A stretch of 41,561 nucleotides of DNA from Methanobacteriota archaeon (GTDB lineage: Archaea > Thermoplasmatota > Poseidoniia > Poseidoniales > Thalassarchaeaceae): positions 1-41,561 of the forward strand of contig PSPX01000022.1 of the NCBI GenBank assembly GCA_004195715.1. Reading direction: 5' to 3'. The notes beneath the pieces are model-generated. The model had not been told where the DNA came from. It saw only the letters and a list, made by a program, of their open reading frames with translations, and did not search any database. This document shows, one piece after another, positions 2,774 through 12,693 of this stretch; within the stretch, counting starts at the first letter, position 1; each line of letters opens with the position of its first letter. A program made the translations under genes and the position numbers.

Positions 2774-3573
2774 GTCAGACTGCTGATCTTCTCCGACTCA
2801 GTCTGACCGAGCCAGTTGCTGAACTCCGGGCCTTGCTGCTTGGAGATTGAGAGACTGCCTGAATAGTGCTCGCCGATGTGCATCAACACCTCGCTCTCAG
2901 CGATATGCGGGGCATTGTTCTTCTCAGATAGATGGCATAGCACGATACTGTCCAGACCCTCACTGAGCACCTCCGCGAGGACTTCCCCAGTCTGCGTGTT
3001 AGAAAGGTGCCCCCCTCTACCTGAAATTCGCCTCTTGAGGGGCTCGGGATACGGGCCTCTCATCAGACGTTTGTGGTCATAGTTCGCCTCGATGGAGATG
3101 TGACTGCATCCCGAGAGATGCTTCTTCAACTCGACTGTGGGTTCTCCGAGGTCGGTGACGATTGCGGCCCTGCGGCCGTCGCCGTTGGTTGCGATGACTG
3201 CGACATTGTCGGCATCATCGTGAGGAACTGGTATCGAAAGTAGGCTGAGGTCTTCGGAGATACCTATTCTGTCTAGATGGCCGAAGGTCCGGCACTCCGA
3301 TATCGGCTGCCACCCCATCTTGGTAGCAGTACCTAGAGTAGCGTGTAGCGCGGCCTCCCATTTCTCCGAAGCTCGCTTGGCAGAATTTGAGTGGTCGGAG
3401 TGATGATGGGTCACCAGAATCGCGTCTATCGACTGTGGCTCGACACCAGCAAGTAACAGTCTGTTCTCCATCTGTCGCAGTGAGAATCCACAATCCACTA
3501 GAACTCGGGTCTCACCTGAACTGAGCAGCGTCGAATTGCCCCTGCTGCCAGAACCGAGGTGAGTTATCTCCAT
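2770..3573 (-). CDS. YycJ/WalJ-like metallo-beta-lactamase-fold hydrolase
   Basis: The protein has 267 residues from the ATG at 3573. An ATG two codons upstream (3579) is equally possible, and the longer frame to 3639 adds residues unlike the family. It opens with MEITHLGSGSRGNS, the standard N-terminus of this family. The metal-binding signature THHHSDH is at residues 55-61. Later family motifs are visible: PVPHDDAD, IVTDLGE, GHLSN and CHLSEKNN. These would bind two metal ions. Bacterial YycJ/WalJ proteins have been linked to nucleic-acid processing with exonuclease-like activity; the substrate in archaea is unknown to me. It is a single gene convergent with the STAND gene and divergent from the calcium-repeat gene. 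Confidence 0.85.
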   Translation of the reverse strand: MEITHLGSGSRGNSTLLSSGETRVLVDCGFSLRQMENRLLLAGVEPQSIDAILVTHHHSDHSNSAKRASEKWEAALHATLGTATKMGWQPISECRTFGHLDRIGISEDLSLLSIPVPHDDADNVAVIATNGDGRRAAIVTDLGEPTVELKKHLSGCSHISIEANYDHKRLMRGPYPEPLKRRISGRGGHLSNTQTGEVLAEVLSEGLDSIVLCHLSEKNNAPHIAESEVLMHIGEHYSGSLSISKQQGPEFSNWLGQTESEKISSLT

Positions 3574-3674: not shown

Positions 3675-3753
3675 GTCAACGAAGCACCTCGACGTGTCCG
3701 AACGACGCTCCATCATCATCATAAGTCAACGAACGGCGCTAAAAATCCCATAC

Positions 3754-3759
3754 AGAGGT
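3754..3759 (+). promoter_or_regulatory. Shine-Dalgarno site fixing the start of the calcium-repeat gene
   Basis: AGAGGT lies 6 nt upstream of ATG 3766. It supports starting the protein at the signal peptide (MRRKQTALL) and not at the upstream in-frame start at 3694. Confidence 0.7.
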
Positions 3760-3765
3760 CATACC

Positions 3766-6700
3766 ATGCGCCGCAAGCAGACAGCGCTACTGATTACACT
3801 ACTTCTTCTCAGTAGTCTCGCCTTCGTCTCACAGACTCGTCCCCAGTCATCGGTCTCTTCGACTGACCCCATCACGGCCGACAGAGGAGGCCCTCCAGTC
3901 ACTGACGAGGACGGTGACCGAATTCCCGATTTGCACGAGTCAATATTTGGGGACGTCAGATTGATTGAAAGCAGCACAGGAATAGTCTCGGTCAACGGCC
4001 TCAATCCTATGAATGCCACCGACAACATGTCCGATCACGACAATGACGGGGCTAGCGCTCTACTCGAATTTTGCTGGCCCTATACTCTGGACACCTGCTT
4101 CGATAGACTGTCGCTGACAGGTAAGCCCCCTCACCTCACAGAATCTGGATTGAGAGAGTATCTCGACCCAAGGGTTGCTGATACGGACGGTGACGGGCTT
4201 CCTGACGGGTACGAGATCTATATGTGCACCGAAGGCGGACTTGGCTATCAGAACGCCACTAACGCCTGGCAGTGCCTCTGGTTCGATCCACTTGACCCCT
4301 CAGATTCAATCGAGGATATCGACAAGTGCGATGACTATAGTTTCGGCTGCGGCGACGGTTTCGACGTCGACAGGGATGGCTACATAGACATCGGTGAGCG
4401 CTATACTAACTCCGAAGAGTACCTGTATGGTACTCCAGATGACTGGCTTACCGAGCGGGACGGCCTGTGGTGTGCGGGCAAAATTCCGGGTTTGACCGAC
4501 GACTCCTGCCAGACTGAGATTGCTAGAGCCACTGGTGACAACGGCTGGCTCGGCAGTGATCCAACTGAGTCCGACTCCGATTACTACACCTGGTCAGAGG
4601 TGATAGCGATAGGACTGGCAGTCCCTGGGGATGGCATCCCCGATGGATGGGAGGTTCACTACGGATTGGACCCACGCAACTCCAGCGATGCCATCGAAGA
4701 CACTGATTCCGACGGGTGGGATCTCGACAGGGACGGTTTCATCATACCCGATATCTCAACCTCCACAGCACACTGGGGCGAGGCATTCAGCAATTACGAG
4801 GAGTACATGATACACCACGATGACGGGGTGTGGGTGACTCCTGGACTCAGAGGAATCTCGTCCTCCGAAAGCGACTCAGATGTAGTCTCCTTTGACCAGA
4901 GTACCAGTCCCGGATTGGTCGACGGGGCCGTACACACTGTGCTGGCCGATTCAGCGAGAGATAGACTGCTGGTAGGCTCGAAGTACGGCATTTCCGTAAT
5001 CGACCCGTTCGAGGGCACCACGACTCTCTACGAGCTTCCCCCGGGGATGCTGATGCACACGATGATTAGGTGGTCTCCGGGGGACTCGGACTTCCTCCTC
5101 ATAGGCTCCAACCTAGGGCTGCACTCGATTACCCTCGAAACCGGACTCCCTTTGATGGACTCAATGTCTGAGATGAGAATAGGGCCCGTTGAGGGCATCT
5201 ACTCTTTGGATACGGGGAGTGGCAACCTCGACCTCATTCTGTTCGGCAACGACTCCGCTTGGACAGCCACTGTCAGCGAGCAGGGAGGCGTTGCCGACGC
5301 TACGGTGAGCGAACCGGTGTTCAACGAAGTGATGACAGAAATGCTGACTGCCTCCGAGACCGAAGTCCTCACCGCGCTACACGTCCCCATGTTCGGCAGG
5401 GGACCACTCCTGCTGATTGGCACCGATGCCGGACTGATTGCATGGAACACCACAGACGGCTCCACTTCGGTCGGCGACCCCTGGTGGGTCTTTGACCGCG
5501 AGAATGCCGAGGACTTCGTTCAGAGGGCCGACCTGCTTAACGTGTCCAAGTCCGCAGTGGTCAACGCACTGGTCACAGCCGGTCCACTCGATGCCCTAGG
5601 CAACGTTGAGGAGGTCACAGGAGTATGGGTGGGGACCTCTGGCGGACTGCATCTTCTCAATCTCCAACTTCTGGTGCAGATGCCCCGTACGGCCTTTGAT
5701 TCAGACAGGATGTACAATATCGAAAGGTGGGCCGAAGGGGCCAATGACATCCGTTCTATTCTTCCTTTGGACGGAAAGATTGTGATTGGGTCTCGCGATG
5801 GTACATGGTGCCTTGAGGGTGGTCATTCCGGTGTATTGGGACTCTATCTCAATCAGACGAGGATTCCTGGAATGGCTACGTCACTAATCACTCTAGAGCA
5901 CGGCACCAGTCTGTGGATCTTCGCCGGGATCTCTCCCGGACGATACATGAACATCATGCCAATCGACCCTACTTCCAAGGACTCCGACCTAGACGGTATG
6001 CCAGACGGCTGGGAATTCATCTACGGCCTCGATCCCACCGACCCGTACGACAGGTACCGTGACGCCGATGCTGATGGGGTACATTTCTCGACTTCCGACG
6101 GCTTTGAGTTCGATCGGGACTGGACCAACCTCGACGAGTACAGGTTCGTCTCAAACACTGAGGGTGGGTACAACGGCACCGACCCCCGTGATATGGACAC
6201 CGACGGAGACGGGCTGACCGATGGCGAGGAGTATTGGGGCTGGTTCGCCGAGTCGACTAACTTCGACTGCCACTATCTCAACGAAGAGTATCTCTGCGAC
6301 GAGGAGACTGGCGAACTGGCAGAGCAGGTTCACTTTGAGGGCTGGCTCGGTTCGGGGGCCGGAGGTGGCACTGATGGACCTACCGACCCTACCAATGCGG
6401 ATACCGATGGCGATGGGATGCCCGACGGCTGGGAGATGGAACATCGGAGGTGGATTGGTGACGTCTACAACGGCGGCAACCTGTGGACCCTTGACCCGCG
6501 CGACCCAGCAGACAAGGATCAGGACGCCGACGGCGACGGCTTGAGTAATCTCTGCGAGTACATGTGGGGGAATCTGCTGGAGACCGTTCTTCGCGAGGGT
6601 CTGGCGACCCACGGAGAGACCTCTGAGGCAGCAGCCAACTGGACCGCTACCGATCCCAATGACATCGACTCTGATGGTGATACACTGCCTGACGGTTGGG

Positions 6701-8634
6701 AGGCTCGCTACGCCTGCTCTTGGAAGAAGGACAATGCCGGAATCAACCCACTGAACGGCTCTGACCTGTTGAACAACCCCGACGGAGACGGTTATGACAT
6801 CAACCACGATGGGGTGCTGGACCTTGAGGAGAGCCTAGTCAACTGGCTAGAGTACCACCTTAAGTCGGAGATTCTGTATGGCGACCAGTCTGCTTCCGGT
6901 ATGGAGTATCCAGAGAACTTCACCACTCTGCTGTGGAATGAGACTTGGTTGGATTTCGCTGATGATTCGTTTGGCGCCTTCACCAGCCCCGCTTACAGCA
7001 GTCTCATCAACGCCACCACTCCTCAGGACGTCGGCTCGTCCAACCCTCTTTCATCCGATTCGGACAGGGACGGCATGCCGGACGGATGGGAATTCTACTA
7101 CGCTAGATGGAGTCTGTTCGACGAGCAATGGACACTCAATCCTGTTGATGAGAGGGACCGGACGGGCGACCCCGATGGAGACGGGATGAATAACTGGGAG
7201 GAGTACAACGTCATCGACAGCAATTTCAGTGAGACCGACGATCTGATTACAGTGCCTCAGTTCTACCTTCTAAGCGTTGGCGGCGAACTACTCGCTTCAC
7301 CTTGGTTGTCGGCGGAGTCAGCCGCTTCGTTCGGAACCTTCCTCACGGAAGATCAGATTAACAAGAGTGGCAGGACTGCTGACCCGAATGACCCTGATAC
7401 AGACGATGACGGGTTGCTCGACGGCATCGAGCTGATATTTACTAGGTGGAACTCGACCGACGAGGTTTGGACTCTGAATCCGCTGGTCGCCGGTGACGGC
7501 AACTACGACTCCGATCGCGACGGCATCACCGATCTCGTTGAGCTGAACCTCACATTCAACAATCCTGCCAACGGCGGACTCTCTCCTCCGGATGCACCGC
7601 GGATGTGGGAGGAGGCCGAGCAGTTGGATCCCGATGAGGCAGTCAACCGAGTCTACAGGATTCTATTCAACAAAGAGGGCAGGGCTGAACTGGCAATTGC
7701 CCAGTTCCAGTCGTGGCAAGACGGCTTTGCCGCCCAACCGGTGGTTTCGGCACTACTGGGTGCTTCCGACCCGAACGCGGAGGACACCGACCGAGACGGC
7801 ATGAGCGATGGTTACGAGTACTGGTTCACTGAGTGGAACCTTGAGCAGAATACTTGGGAGATGAACCTCCTGACCGACAGTGACATTCACGTCGATTCCG
7901 ATGGCGACTCGTTTGACTGCAACGGTGATGGGCACATCTCAGACTCAGAGTCCTTCGACAACCTCGCTGAGTACGATGCTAGGGTTTACGGCAAGCGCTC
8001 GGCTATCGACACCATCCCTAATGGTACGGGACTAATCTCATACGGTGCCGACGCCGTGACCGCACAGATTGAGGAGAATGGCCTAGCCTACGATGCCGCA
8101 TTCGCCCAGCTCTATGTCATGTTCTCGACCAAGAGTCTGGTATCAGCTGAGCGCGCCGGACTGATTAATGGCGTCGACCCAGACACTTTCAACTACAGTA
8201 TCGCCGGAGTCAGCGACCCTACTGACGATGACTCGGATCGAGACGGGATGCCCGACGGCTGGGAATTCTGCTATTCTATCTACGGCGAGTTCCTGCCGGT
8301 GAACTCGTACAGGTGGTCAATGAACCCAATCAACCCGTTGGACATCGACTACGATCCGGACGCCGATGGCTGGTATGACCGGTCGTGGGGTGATATCCCA
8401 GCCCCTCAGGGCACATGGGAGGATAGGCAGTTCACTCTCGCACCTGTCGAACAGCAGATTGGACAGGGCTTCCTCGGCCTGTACTTCAGCAATTTGATGG
8501 AGTACGAGAACGGCACCCACCCTCTCGATGCTGACTCCGATGACGACTCAATGGTGATGAAGCCGATAATGCAGAATGGAGTCGTCATAGACTACGTTCA
8601 GGACACCAACCAAGTACGGAACCAACCCTCTTGA
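3766..8634 (+). CDS. Giant secreted calcium-repeat (thrombospondin type 3-like) protein, main part before a frame break
   Basis: The frame gives 1622 residues from ATG 3766. A signal peptide, MRRKQTALLITLLLLSSLAF, opens the protein. About twenty acidic motifs of the type DxDxDGMPDGWE are spread through it, each usually followed by an aromatic-rich turn and 'LDPxDPxD'. This is the pattern of thrombospondin type 3 and EF-hand-like calcium loops, which form rigid calcium-dependent rods. Residues about 382-735 lack these loops and look like a beta-propeller ('LLVGSKYGISVID', 'LLIGSNLGLHSI', 'VWVGTSGGLHLLN'). Asn-x-Ser/Thr sequons are common. The frame ends in an uncharacteristic stretch (...DTNQVRNQPS), and the repeat pattern resumes one base out of phase in the 3' part. 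I infer a cell-surface or exported structural or adhesion protein. No catalytic domain is recognised. Confidence 0.85.
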   Translation: MRRKQTALLITLLLLSSLAFVSQTRPQSSVSSTDPITADRGGPPVTDEDGDRIPDLHESIFGDVRLIESSTGIVSVNGLNPMNATDNMSDHDNDGASALLEFCWPYTLDTCFDRLSLTGKPPHLTESGLREYLDPRVADTDGDGLPDGYEIYMCTEGGLGYQNATNAWQCLWFDPLDPSDSIEDIDKCDDYSFGCGDGFDVDRDGYIDIGERYTNSEEYLYGTPDDWLTERDGLWCAGKIPGLTDDSCQTEIARATGDNGWLGSDPTESDSDYYTWSEVIAIGLAVPGDGIPDGWEVHYGLDPRNSSDAIEDTDSDGWDLDRDGFIIPDISTSTAHWGEAFSNYEEYMIHHDDGVWVTPGLRGISSSESDSDVVSFDQSTSPGLVDGAVHTVLADSARDRLLVGSKYGISVIDPFEGTTTLYELPPGMLMHTMIRWSPGDSDFLLIGSNLGLHSITLETGLPLMDSMSEMRIGPVEGIYSLDTGSGNLDLILFGNDSAWTATVSEQGGVADATVSEPVFNEVMTEMLTASETEVLTALHVPMFGRGPLLLIGTDAGLIAWNTTDGSTSVGDPWWVFDRENAEDFVQRADLLNVSKSAVVNALVTAGPLDALGNVEEVTGVWVGTSGGLHLLNLQLLVQMPRTAFDSDRMYNIERWAEGANDIRSILPLDGKIVIGSRDGTWCLEGGHSGVLGLYLNQTRIPGMATSLITLEHGTSLWIFAGISPGRYMNIMPIDPTSKDSDLDGMPDGWEFIYGLDPTDPYDRYRDADADGVHFSTSDGFEFDRDWTNLDEYRFVSNTEGGYNGTDPRDMDTDGDGLTDGEEYWGWFAESTNFDCHYLNEEYLCDEETGELAEQVHFEGWLGSGAGGGTDGPTDPTNADTDGDGMPDGWEMEHRRWIGDVYNGGNLWTLDPRDPADKDQDADGDGLSNLCEYMWGNLLETVLREGLATHGETSEAAANWTATDPNDIDSDGDTLPDGWEARYACSWKKDNAGINPLNGSDLLNNPDGDGYDINHDGVLDLEESLVNWLEYHLKSEILYGDQSASGMEYPENFTTLLWNETWLDFADDSFGAFTSPAYSSLINATTPQDVGSSNPLSSDSDRDGMPDGWEFYYARWSLFDEQWTLNPVDERDRTGDPDGDGMNNWEEYNVIDSNFSETDDLITVPQFYLLSVGGELLASPWLSAESAASFGTFLTEDQINKSGRTADPNDPDTDDDGLLDGIELIFTRWNSTDEVWTLNPLVAGDGNYDSDRDGITDLVELNLTFNNPANGGLSPPDAPRMWEEAEQLDPDEAVNRVYRILFNKEGRAELAIAQFQSWQDGFAAQPVVSALLGASDPNAEDTDRDGMSDGYEYWFTEWNLEQNTWEMNLLTDSDIHVDSDGDSFDCNGDGHISDSESFDNLAEYDARVYGKRSAIDTIPNGTGLISYGADAVTAQIEENGLAYDAAFAQLYVMFSTKSLVSAERAGLINGVDPDTFNYSIAGVSDPTDDDSDRDGMPDGWEFCYSIYGEFLPVNSYRWSMNPINPLDIDYDPDADGWYDRSWGDIPAPQGTWEDRQFTLAPVEQQIGQGFLGLYFSNLMEYENGTHPLDADSDDDSMVMKPIMQNGVVIDYVQDTNQVRNQPS

Positions 8635-9380
8635 CAACGATACCGACGGCGATATGATGCCCGATTTCTACGAGTATTATCGTGGCTGGAACGAGGCCAA
8701 TGACAACTGGTCTTCATACCTGAAGATATCAGTAGTCTGGCAGCAAATCACGGCAACCAACTGGAAGCCAGTCAACATCACCGGAACGAGCATCGCGAGG
8801 CCCGAACTCGCATGGACGTGGTTCACCCACGACGCCACCGATCCATCGGATGCGGGACAGGACGCAGACAACGACGGCAGCTGGGACTGCTCCAGCGGCA
8901 GCTGCCTCTATATCCCGTACAACAACTTCCAGGAATACTACGGACTAGTCAATGCCTCCCTAGCCTCGCCCTCTCTCGTCAGACAGGCCGGGCTGTACGA
9001 CTGTTCTGGCAACATCGTGCAGGAGTGGTGGCAGCTGCGTGAGTCCCTTCTGGGGACCTGCTCTGGCAACGCCGCTCTCAGTTCGAACTACTTCCGCATG
9101 TACCGGATTAACAACGCCGACCTACTGTACGCACTCATTATCGATGACAACGACGTTGACTACGAGGATATCGACACTAGCGATGACGAGGTCCTCGTAA
9201 ACGGCGCATGGACCGACGTATACCAGAGGTTCGCAGGAGACCAGTACCACCTGCCCAACACTGGCTTAGGTGAGTACGTCTATGGTTGGTGGTTGATTGA
9301 CATTGATGGCGACCAAATCGCCGACGGCACCAATCCAGCGAATTGGGACACTGATGGGGACTGGCTAAACGACTTCTTTG
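3901..9380 (+). repeat. Array of degenerate DxDxDGxPDGWE-coding repeats
   Basis: Near-identical DNA cores encode the repeat at about 5992-6018, 6412-6435, 7069-7098 and 8241-8270 (gacgg-atgcc-gacgg-tgggaattc type), with weaker copies between them. Spacing is irregular, about 200-600 nt. The repeats also create long spurious antisense frames, for example 6151-6807. Such internal identity is a likely source of recombination and of assembly error. Confidence 0.7.
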
Positions 9381-9460
9381 AGATCGAGGACGACTTGCTC
9401 GATGGGGTGCGAGGCAACAGCGGCTCTCCCATCAGGTACGACGATCGCACTACTAGTTGA
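8591..9460 (+). CDS. C-terminal part of the giant calcium-repeat protein, +1 frame
   Basis: This frame is open from 8591. Its first family-like residues are KYGTNPLDNDTDGDMMPDF from 8612, followed by the same aromatic-rich acidic repeats through IDGDQIADG and DTDGDWLNDFFEI to a stop at 9458-9460. The first internal ATG is at 8654, but starting there would cut a repeat in half and would leave a secreted domain without a signal peptide. It is therefore best read as the end of the gene that starts at 3766, giving about 1900 residues in total. The frames are joined by skipping one base (or restoring two) around 8604-8611. No transmembrane anchor follows. The end, SPIRYDDRTTS, looks like a natural terminus. 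Confidence 0.75.
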   Translation, partial: TTFRTPTKYGTNPLDNDTDGDMMPDFYEYYRGWNEANDNWSSYLKISVVWQQITATNWKPVNITGTSIARPELAWTWFTHDATDPSDAGQDADNDGSWDCSSGSCLYIPYNNFQEYYGLVNASLASPSLVRQAGLYDCSGNIVQEWWQLRESLLGTCSGNAALSSNYFRMYRINNADLLYALIIDDNDVDYEDIDTSDDEVLVNGAWTDVYQRFAGDQYHLPNTGLGEYVYGWWLIDIDGDQIADGTNPANWDTDGDWLNDFFEIEDDLLDGVRGNSGSPIRYDDRTTS

Positions 9461-9490: not shown

Positions 9491-9961
9491 ATGGGCGAAG
9501 ATGCGAGGGTGCCTGCACCTGAAGCACCAGTGGAGGAGAGACTGCTTTTTCTACAGGAGAACATGGTGAGCTTTGTCAACCAGTTCAACATGCCAGTCAT
9601 CGAGGTGGCACTAGTCCTATCGAAGTACATCCGCATCCTCCTTGAGTCTCTGCAGAAAACCGCGCAGAGTAATGACGAGGTTTTACCATCGAGGCTAATC
9701 GAGCCGTGGCACATCGAAGCACAGGACGAGGTACCGAGAATCGACTCATTCCCTCTAGAGACTTTGCTTGGCAGTCTCGACGAGGATAGAATGGACATTC
9801 TGGATACTCTGATTAGGACCATCTTGAACGAGAGCCAACTCCCCTTCACACCTGCTCTTACTCTGCTAAGAGAGTGGGAGGCATTAGTTAGGGTCCAGTT
9901 AGCCAATGCCAGCGGTCCCGGACAACTGTTCAGCCCAATAGATCTGCCAGAGGACTTCTGA
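9491..9961 (+). CDS. Hypothetical helical protein
   Basis: The protein has 156 residues from ATG 9491, 30 nt after the calcium-repeat gene. I do not recognise a family. It is acidic, has no signal peptide or Cys motif, and is rich in amphipathic helices with regular Leu spacing ('EVALVLSKYIRILLESLQ', 'MDILDTLIRTILNESQ', 'LTLLREWEALVRVQL'), so a cytosolic all-helical fold is likely. An AT-rich stretch (9457-9468) sits about 27 nt upstream, where an archaeal TATA element would lie, but its match is weak. Its stop abuts the stop of the next, convergent gene with no gap. Confidence 0.6.
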   Translation: MGEDARVPAPEAPVEERLLFLQENMVSFVNQFNMPVIEVALVLSKYIRILLESLQKTAQSNDEVLPSRLIEPWHIEAQDEVPRIDSFPLETLLGSLDEDRMDILDTLIRTILNESQLPFTPALTLLREWEALVRVQLANASGPGQLFSPIDLPEDF

Positions 9962-10294
9962 TTATTCGCTCTCAGCCTTGGCGACGATTCCGCTGGAGAC
10001 CCACCATGCATCGGCGATTGACCAGATGAACAGCACTGGCCACAGTACAACTGAGAATATCAGAGGGAGCTGTATGACGAACCATCCGAGTGCCTTGCGG
10101 TGCTGGCGGTTGAAGTGCTGTCCGAGGTAGAGGAAGGGGACGAGAGATATAGCGAGAGCTACGAGGGGGCGCAGAGCCCCCCAAGGGCCAATACCACCGC
10201 TCAATTCGTACCATATCACTCCTATCACGCCCAGAGCACTCGCCTCTTCTGGTTCTTTTTCGGAGGCCACGCTGACCACATACTCCTCCGCCAT
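9962..10294 (-). CDS. Small multi-pass membrane protein
   Basis: The protein has 110 residues from the ATG at 10294. It has a short acidic cytosolic N-terminus and then hydrophobic segments around residues 42-57 (LVALAISLVPFLYLG) and 70-96 (GWFVIQLPLIFSVVLWPVLFIWSIADAWW), separated by a basic loop 'QHFNRQHRKALGW'. The short hydrophobic hairpin with a charged turn recalls TM2-domain-like small membrane proteins, but the match is loose. Function is unknown. Confidence 0.6.
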   Translation of the reverse strand: MAEEYVVSVASEKEPEEASALGVIGVIWYELSGGIGPWGALRPLVALAISLVPFLYLGQHFNRQHRKALGWFVIQLPLIFSVVLWPVLFIWSIADAWWVSSGIVAKAESE

Positions 10295-10380: not shown

Positions 10381-11370
10381 GTGAGCGAACCTAGGGTCCT
10401 AGTCACAGCATTCCCTCCATTCTCCGAATTCGACAGCAACGTTTCCCAGAGCGTGCTCAATAGGCTCGAAATCGAAGGTGTGCAAGGCCTCGATGTCGTG
10501 ACATGGCTTCTTAGCGTCGATGAGGAGGGCTCACGCGCGGTCGCCAACCAGATTCGCAAAGACATACAGGTCGATGGCATACTGCACCTAGGCCTAGCGG
10601 CCAGAAGGAAATCAATCTCCCTAGAGAGGATGGCTCGGAACGAGTTCTCGATGAACGAGCCCGACAACTCCGGCCGATTGCTCGATTCAGGGGAGATAGT
10701 CAGAGGTGCCCCCGAAACAATCCTAACCACTGCTCCGGTCCATGTCATGGACGAGGAGTTCGAGCGCGACGAGCATATCTGCTGGAGCGAAGACGCAGGA
10801 GGATATGTCTGTAACGAGACAATCTACCGTACACTGTACGCGATGCAAGATAGGGAGGAAAGCCCTCTGCCGGCGATGTTCGTTCACCTGCCCCCCGAGG
10901 ACGAAATCTCACTGGATGTCCAGGTCGAAGCAGTCAGGAGGATTGCGACCTGTCTCGTATGCAGGCCGACCTACGAGGTCGTTGGCGGTCTGCTGTTCGA
11001 TGCCGAGGACAGGATACTGGCCTGCAAGCGACCGCAGGGCGACGCCTGGGCAGGTTGGTGGGAATTTCCAGGGGGAAAAATCGAAGCAGGCGAGGGGCCA
11101 GACACGGCGCTAATCAGGGAACTCATCGAGGAGATTGGAGTCTCCCCTCATCCGAAATTCATGGTCGAGCAGATTAGCCACGAATACGATGACAGGTCAG
11201 TGAAACTGCAGATATGGGACTGCGGCGTAATAGATCCCGATTCGATAAGACTGATCGAGCACGATGAGGCCAGATGGCTTTCGGCGGACGAATTGCTGGA
11301 TGTCAAGTGGTTGCCAGCCGACCTTCCAATCATCGAGAGATGGAAGCGCGAGGGCATTCCCCGAAACTAG
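10381..11370 (+). CDS. Pyroglutamyl-peptidase-like / Nudix hydrolase fusion
   Basis: The protein has 329 residues from GTG 10381. Residues 1-190 match the peptidase C15 (pyroglutamyl peptidase I) fold. They open with VLVTAFPPF and carry the catalytic residues in family context: Glu82 in LERMARN, Cys144 in AGGYVCNETIY and His169 in MFVHLPPE. Such enzymes remove N-terminal pyroglutamate from peptides. Residues about 196-329 are a Nudix domain with an intact box (G232 x5 E238 x7 R246-E-L-x-E-E-x-G-V254) preceded by WWEFPGGK, like MutT-type nucleotide pyrophosphatases. One uninterrupted frame joins them, with only a short CLVC-containing linker. No signal peptide is seen, so it is cytosolic. A TATA-like AAAAGG lies about 30 nt upstream. 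The Nudix substrate cannot be read from sequence. Confidence 0.85.
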   Translation: MSEPRVLVTAFPPFSEFDSNVSQSVLNRLEIEGVQGLDVVTWLLSVDEEGSRAVANQIRKDIQVDGILHLGLAARRKSISLERMARNEFSMNEPDNSGRLLDSGEIVRGAPETILTTAPVHVMDEEFERDEHICWSEDAGGYVCNETIYRTLYAMQDREESPLPAMFVHLPPEDEISLDVQVEAVRRIATCLVCRPTYEVVGGLLFDAEDRILACKRPQGDAWAGWWEFPGGKIEAGEGPDTALIRELIEEIGVSPHPKFMVEQISHEYDDRSVKLQIWDCGVIDPDSIRLIEHDEARWLSADELLDVKWLPADLPIIERWKREGIPRN

Positions 11371-11879
11371 TCCTCACCAATCGTCCGCCTCCCCCTTCGG
11401 TCAAACCATTCTACAGGCTCGCCGCTGCCATCCATGGACAATCCGTCGCCGATACTGCGCGGAATGGAATCGCGACCCGCGTGCCAAGTCTGCTGCTCCA
11501 GCCAGTCTGCAAGATCCTCTCCAGTCAGGCCAATCCTCATCTCTCCACCCATGCCCCTGCCTCCGATTACGAATGATGCCTTGCCCGCGAGAGCAGCCTG
11601 ACGGGATAGAGAGAAGCCCGTTGAACCTCCGTCCAGTTCCAGAGTCATGGCATCAAGAGCAGTATCTAGAATTCTTTGGTTCCTGATTGCTTTGAGTAGA
11701 GTGTTTAGGGAGTCGGACGAACCAGTCATCATCCCCGCCGCCCTCTCGTTGGGGAAGGTAGCGTTCGCGGGCACCCTGTCCGGGCTCCAATCGGGAAACA
11801 TCTCTCTGACAGCATCCACCACTCGCTGCGGGTCCTCATGCGGCTGCACGACCGTGGAGACACTAATCAGAGGAGGCAC
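11367..11879 (-). CDS. UPF0201-family RNA-binding-like protein
   Basis: The protein has about 170 residues from a GTG at 11879; an ATG at 11918 would add 13 basic residues not typical of the family. The start LISVSTVVQPHEDPQRV, the central QRILDTALDAM, the segment GFSLSRQAALAGKASFV and the C-terminal 'GLTGEDLADWLEQQT' fit the archaeal UPF0201 family (Pfam RNA_binding PF01877). This is a small archaeal family with an ribosomal-protein-like alpha/beta fold. RNA binding is assumed from the fold and is not proven. The C-terminus is about 30 residues longer than usual. It overlaps the end of the Pcp-Nudix gene by 4 nt. Confidence 0.75.
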   Translation of the reverse strand: MPPLISVSTVVQPHEDPQRVVDAVREMFPDWSPDRVPANATFPNERAAGMMTGSSDSLNTLLKAIRNQRILDTALDAMTLELDGGSTGFSLSRQAALAGKASFVIGGRGMGGEMRIGLTGEDLADWLEQQTWHAGRDSIPRSIGDGLSMDGSGEPVEWFDRRGRRTIGED

Positions 11880-11973
11880 GAGCCTTCGTACGCGCCGCTG
11901 GCCATGAGTTCTCTGCATCCAAACGCTCCCGAGAACACGAATGATTCAAACGATGTGGGATTGGGCCTGAGGC

Positions 11974-12693
11974 ATGGCTCAGCGTTCACAGATGCTGGGG
12001 GGCGCCCTCCTCCTCGCCCCTACTCTGTGCGTAGTGGCTCTACGTTACAGCTCCGACGCTCTTGAGGAAGTCATCTCACAGGATACCACTCTGCGGTACT
12101 CTATTCACGCTGTCGCCCTCTTGGCTGGAGTTGTGATGTTCATGAGGTTCCGCAAGGTAGAGGATCATGAGTTCCACAGGTCGAGAGCAATTCGCAAATT
12201 GTCCAAGACGTACTCGCGCGAAGACAGGGGGTTGTGGGATAAGGGCGAAGCTGCGATTCAGCGCATGGAGGCCAAAGCGAGTGTCCCGTCAACTGGTCGC
12301 AAGGCCCTGAAGGCCCAAGCGCTGAAGTCCGGAACTGTAGGTTCCCTGAACACCGAGCGCTCTGAGGAGGACATTGGTGAGGACATAGATCCTCCTCAAT
12401 CGCCGACTACGGGTATCAGCACTATGGTAGATGAGGAGGCAATAGCCGAGTCGAAGGGCCCGGGTGCATTCTCTAGGATTTCAGGGGCAATCAACAGACG
12501 TCTCGATGCATCAGCTGAGCGGAGGATGGAGCGCAGAGCCTCAAAAGCCAGCAAGAAAGCCTCATCGGATGACCAGTGGGAGACTCCAGTGGCATCTTCT
12601 CTGGCCCGTTCAGTCATCTCTTGTGGAGCCTGTGGTTCTCTGAACAACTCAGGAACCCCGTACTGCACTTCATGTGGCGAGTTCCTGACTTAA
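11974..12693 (+). CDS. Membrane protein with C-terminal zinc ribbon
   Basis: The protein has 239 residues from ATG 11974. Hydrophobic segments lie at about residues 7-23 and 44-59. They are followed by a long charged, low-complexity cytosolic region rich in Arg, Lys, Glu and Ser. The last 23 residues hold a CGAC...CTSC zinc ribbon (Cys217, 220, 231, 234). The layout suggests a two-pass membrane anchor that presents a zinc ribbon to the cytosol, a common archaeal plan of unknown function. It is divergent from the UPF0201 gene (94 nt) and followed 47 nt later by dnaJ. Confidence 0.65.

Follow-up and report, generated by a model that had tools for sequence, protein, structure and literature searches.

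Does a single chain that joins a pyroglutamyl peptidase (Pcp) to a MutT-like Nudix hydrolase serve one pathway, or does it carry two separate enzymes? The question is raised by one gene in the stretch of archaeal DNA analysed here (41,561 nucleotides in all, hereafter the window). A preliminary description had suggested that the substrate of the Pcp half could be a small molecule of 5-oxoproline or gamma-glutamyl type, which the Nudix half then ties to nucleotide metabolism. The reading that we favour, with a probability of about 0.66 and on the basis of sequence comparisons, is a different one: the protein would consist of two independent housekeeping enzymes on one chain, fused once in Ca. 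Poseidoniales.

Two domains in one reading frame

The features of the locus are listed below; the two neighbouring genes are given for context only.

9962 to 10294, minus strand: small membrane protein, conserved divergent neighbour (weak Imm_superinfect match, below cut-off)
10381 to 11370, plus strand: Pcp-Nudix fusion gene, 329 amino acids, GTG start, TAG stop, unbroken frame
10381 to 10962, plus strand: Pcp (Peptidase_C15) half, residues 1-194, with Glu82, Cys144 and His169 (Pfam and PDB sequence matches)
10969 to 11367, plus strand: MutT/NudG-type Nudix half, residues 197-329 (Pfam, NCBIfam, PDB and fold search)
11074 to 11142, plus strand: Nudix box, residues 232-254, GX5EX7REUXEEXGU complete in the translation
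11367 to 11918, minus strand: PF01877 RNA_binding protein, conserved convergent neighbour, its stop overlapping that of the fusion gene

The gene is open from GTG to TAG, confirming the earlier report of both domains in one polypeptide. It is single-copy in the window's own genome, the position of its start codon is conserved within the genus, and the two-domain architecture of the protein is far beyond chance. The catalytic residues named in the preliminary description also hold up: Glu82, Cys144 and His169 align with the catalytic residues of solved Pcp structures (motifs ER.A, AG.Y.CN and F.H.P), and the complete Nudix box is an exact match at residues 232-254.

The Pcp half matched Peptidase_C15 (PF01470) in Pfam over residues 5-172 (E 1.5e-20; 74.6 bits against a curated cut-off of 22.7), covering positions 2-169 of the 204 in the profile. 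Its score with the NCBIfam pyroglutamyl-peptidase I equivalog TIGR00504 was 74.9 bits, below the cut-off of 201.75, which marks it as a divergent member and not an assured equivalog. A Foldseek search with the predicted model found the Pcp fold of 6ltq (E 2.1e-17, TM by target 0.79). The triad and Asp95, Asn96, Arg99 and Asn145 were invariant in 52 aligned members, as were the motifs Asp95-Asn96-x-Gly-Arg99 and Cys144-Asn145-Glu146. The half is a C15 domain with ordinary motifs and probably has pyroglutamyl peptidase activity. A putative change of the substrate pocket at the residue preceding PDN was dropped, because that residue also differs between solved Pcps (2ebj has R, 6ltq has H).

The Nudix half matched NUDIX_4 (residues 204-319, E 2.1e-18) and NUDIX (residues 200-318, E 9.9e-18) in Pfam, scoring 64.9 bits for PF00293 (cut-off 21.1) and 66.6 bits for PF14815 (cut-off 35). 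Its Nudix box residues are G232, E238, R246, E247, E250, E251 and G253; the box residues tested were invariant in 40 fused members, together with Arg217, Trp227, His294 and Trp299, and Asp314 was kept in 38 of the 39 members having that position. The best sequence matches were MutT/NudG models and chains, with scores under the equivalog cut-offs for both MutT (TIGR00586, 73.3 bits against 97.9) and NudG/CTP pyrophosphohydrolase (PRK10546, 72.3 bits against 156).

An AlphaFold model built with 25 homologues had a mean pLDDT of 94.1 and a pTM of 0.79. In Foldseek its halves separately matched solved Pcps over ~200 columns and MutT/NudG/BdRppH chains over ~135 columns. Only about three residues of the model separate the C-terminal helix of Pcp (178-193) from the strand that opens the Nudix half (197-206).

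One ancestral locus and repeated loss of the Nudix half

The preliminary description had proposed a search for other proteins with both Peptidase_C15 and NUDIX domains, and the fused gene was found throughout Ca. Poseidoniales, in both families of the order and always at the same locus. All 60 relatives (Ca. Thalassarchaeaceae, Ca. Poseidoniaceae and other assemblies of Marine Group II, that is, Ca. Poseidoniales) matched, most of them with a full-length frame. In a sample of the class, 234 of 292 genomes matched, and among the matches listed all belonged to two families of one order. An otherwise full-length fusion in one genome (G005) has a single in-frame TAA at about residue 266, in the Nudix half, reflecting either a sequence error or a fresh truncation.

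No fusion was found in the six genomes listed for the sister order of the class, nor in the rest of the phylum sample, where Pcp-like and Nudix-like matches were separate genes in different places. The three closest outside Pcp genes had no Nudix attached; long open frames in the closest outside Pcps (G300, G301 and G319) were considered as candidate fusions and rejected, because they extend upstream of Pcp and hold no Nudix. Among 80 loci listed in a scan of a genome collection, no bacterial Nudix match was fused to Pcp. In Arthrobacter sp. Soil736, MutT-like and Pcp genes (2986-3444 and 4819-5430) are separated by ~1.4 kb that holds a radical-SAM-like gene on the opposite strand; their closeness is probably coincidence.

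The order of divergent membrane-protein gene, fusion and convergent PF01877 gene was seen in 86 locus records from the order, a count in which some genomes appear more than once and the exceptions are contig ends. The PF01877 gene ends within a few tens of bases of the fusion gene's end, often overlapping it, and Pcps outside the order are without these two neighbours. The shared neighbours indicate an orthologous locus. A maximum-likelihood tree built on the Pcp half joined all members of the order against outside Pcps (98/97), showing that across the order the Pcp gene found here descends from one ancestor. The order's Nudix halves also cluster together, but weakly: in a tree with Nudix proteins of the phylum and of bacteria they had one origin in 53% of bootstraps, and that tree identified no outside source for them.

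Further out in the window, the genes at 9491-9961 and 11974-12693 are conserved as neighbours across the order and keep a fixed synteny with DnaJ. Neither matches a Pfam family; the C-terminal tail of the 11974-12693 product is zinc-ribbon-like (CxxC...CxxC). A very large open frame at 3694-9460 carries many D-x-D-x-D-G repeats (weak TSP3_bac, below cut-off), and 8654-9460, in another frame, looks like its continuation, which may reflect a frameshift or two genes.

Several genomes of the genera g3 and g7, in the window's family, have the Pcp half only. Their genes end where the Nudix would begin, adjoin the same convergent gene as the fusions and retain the catalytic triad. On the Pcp tree the Nudix half was lost independently at least four times, once in g3 and three times in g7, a minimum even when only well-supported branches are counted. 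No replacement MutT-like gene was found in the Pcp-only genomes, which hold only the generic distant Nudix set also seen in fused genomes. In genus g6 and one further genome, G018, the whole fusion gene was cleanly lost and the two neighbours nearly abut (L203, L204, L205 and L206). Contig breaks aside, a Nudix-only state was not seen at the locus. For close fused pairs, NG86 omega was 0.08-0.18 in the Pcp half and 0.03-0.15 in the Nudix half, values that place both under purifying selection for function; pairs of Pcp-only copies (0.14-0.28) are likewise under purifying selection.

Two probably independent enzymes on one chain, and the alternatives

We infer both catalytic activities, their substrates and their functional independence as follows. 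The N-terminal half would be an ordinary pyroglutamyl peptidase I of the cysteine type (C15), stripping N-terminal pyroglutamate from peptides as they are broken down, and the C-terminal half would be a Nudix pyrophosphohydrolase of MutT/NudG type with (damaged) nucleoside triphosphates as substrates. A single fusion event would predate the split of the order's two families and give both enzymes a shared chain and a shared promoter. They would work independently of each other, with Pcp as the core and the Nudix half as a discardable accessory. The protein is probably cytosolic, with no signal sequence apparent. Ca. Poseidoniales have been called proteolytic, with many di- and oligopeptidases, and peptide trimming by the Pcp half would fit this reported way of life (PMC6461757).

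The losses bear directly on independence. Obligatory coupling predicts that the halves are kept or lost together; instead, the accessory was shed repeatedly while Pcp was kept, which favours independence and speaks against a pathway that must run through both domains. Since these genomes have no competing MutT gene, the repeated loss needs a relaxed demand for the Nudix half. As a counterpoint, retention over most of the order, the very short linker and the strong selection on both halves could mean cooperation.

One alternative keeps two enzymes but takes the Nudix half for an RNA 5'-end or other pyrophosphohydrolase instead of a cleaner of the nucleotide pool. BdRppH structures rank among the best Nudix fold matches, and the convergent neighbour encodes an RNA-binding protein. 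Asp314 stands where E. coli MutT has its base-recognition residue, Asn119, and together with the fold matches this makes any substrate read from the Nudix sequence tentative. However, the best sequence matches point to MutT/NudG and convergent neighbours are weak functional evidence, so that we regard this alternative as unlikely, though worth keeping in mind.

A regulatory fusion, in which the Nudix half senses nucleotides or cleaves a signal nucleotide and so tunes the peptidase, or shapes its oligomer, is quite unlikely. In other proteins, Nudix domains can act as ligand sensors, and the modelled passage from helix to strand suggests a rigid junction. Against this, every Nudix catalytic glutamate is invariant, suggesting selection for catalysis and not only for binding, and Pcp persists without the Nudix half.

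We consider it very doubtful that the protein is a coupled enzyme whose halves serve one pathway or composite molecule, such as a pyroglutamyl- or gamma-glutamyl-nucleotide compound. The wide retention of the fusion, its invariant active sites and the short linker would fit such an enzyme, but the Nudix losses left Pcp with no substitute, and the gene stands alone between divergent and convergent genes, with no operon partner hinting at a pathway. Searches of 15 genomes from the order gave no match to the 5-oxoprolinase families Hydantoinase_B and LamB_YcsF, whereas control genomes did match, leaving no sign of a dedicated pyroglutamate route through either family. These absences and the ordinary C15 motifs tell against the small-molecule substrate first suggested for the Pcp half, and the losses against its link to nucleotide metabolism through the Nudix half. 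Taken more broadly, there is a small likelihood that the active sites cooperate on a pyroglutamyl- or glutamyl-linked nucleotide compound or regulate each other, which would newly connect peptide catabolism to the nucleotide pool in archaea that are abundant in the surface ocean.

A local gene fusion or assembly error, for which nothing speaks beyond the oddity of the domain pair, is ruled out: the full-length frame recurs in dozens of independent assemblies that span more than 15 genera, one of them a genome of 2.06 Mb on a single contig (G037). The two adjacent genes split near codon 195 that the preliminary description had envisaged were not seen in relatives, and those with a stop near codon 195-205 simply lack the Nudix half.

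Comparison with known systems

Both families are well known, and their combination appears to be undescribed in the literature searched: a search with partial coverage found no paper describing a Pcp plus Nudix architecture, and no mention of C15 or Nudix was found in the Marine Group II literature searched. A survey of archaeal fusions reported Ca. Poseidoniia to be rich in high-confidence fusions, and its main text makes no mention of Nudix (PMC11237513). The domain pair has persisted throughout the evolution of an entire order of ocean archaea that are abundant and uncultured. Its fused, Pcp-only and gene-less relatives offer a natural comparison of whether enzyme fusions signal coupling or convenience, and the Nudix losses point to convenience rather than functional coupling. 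Annotators should note that one gene supplies both the order's Pcp and its only close MutT-like Nudix.

With pyroglutamyl peptidase I (MEROPS C15, PF01470; Thermus 2ebj, Pyrococcus 1iof) the Pcp half shares the fold, the Glu-Cys-His triad, the FxxF and PDNxG motifs and the full C-terminal helix, at 28-34% identity to solved Pcps in the fold search. The order's protein differs from known Pcps in its C-terminal Nudix domain, in its invariant Arg99 and Glu146, and in scoring under the full-length NCBIfam equivalog cut-offs. With MutT/NudG proteins (CTP pyrophosphohydrolase, Orf135; 3r03, 5x1x and 2rrk), which gave the best sequence and fold matches, the Nudix half shares the complete Nudix box, Trp299 and the C-terminal PADLP motif, but it sits fused behind a peptidase. 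Asp314 replaces the Asn of E. coli MutT, and NudG/Orf135 and many MutT-annotated chains likewise have Asp there; most members of family f2 have this Asp without the PADLP context. In NCBIfam the Nudix half scored best with PRK08999-type fusions, which also carry a MutT-like Nudix inside a longer protein; there, however, the Nudix is N-terminal (match to positions 7-126 of 315) and its partner is a different one, presumably a thiamine-phosphate-synthase-like domain.
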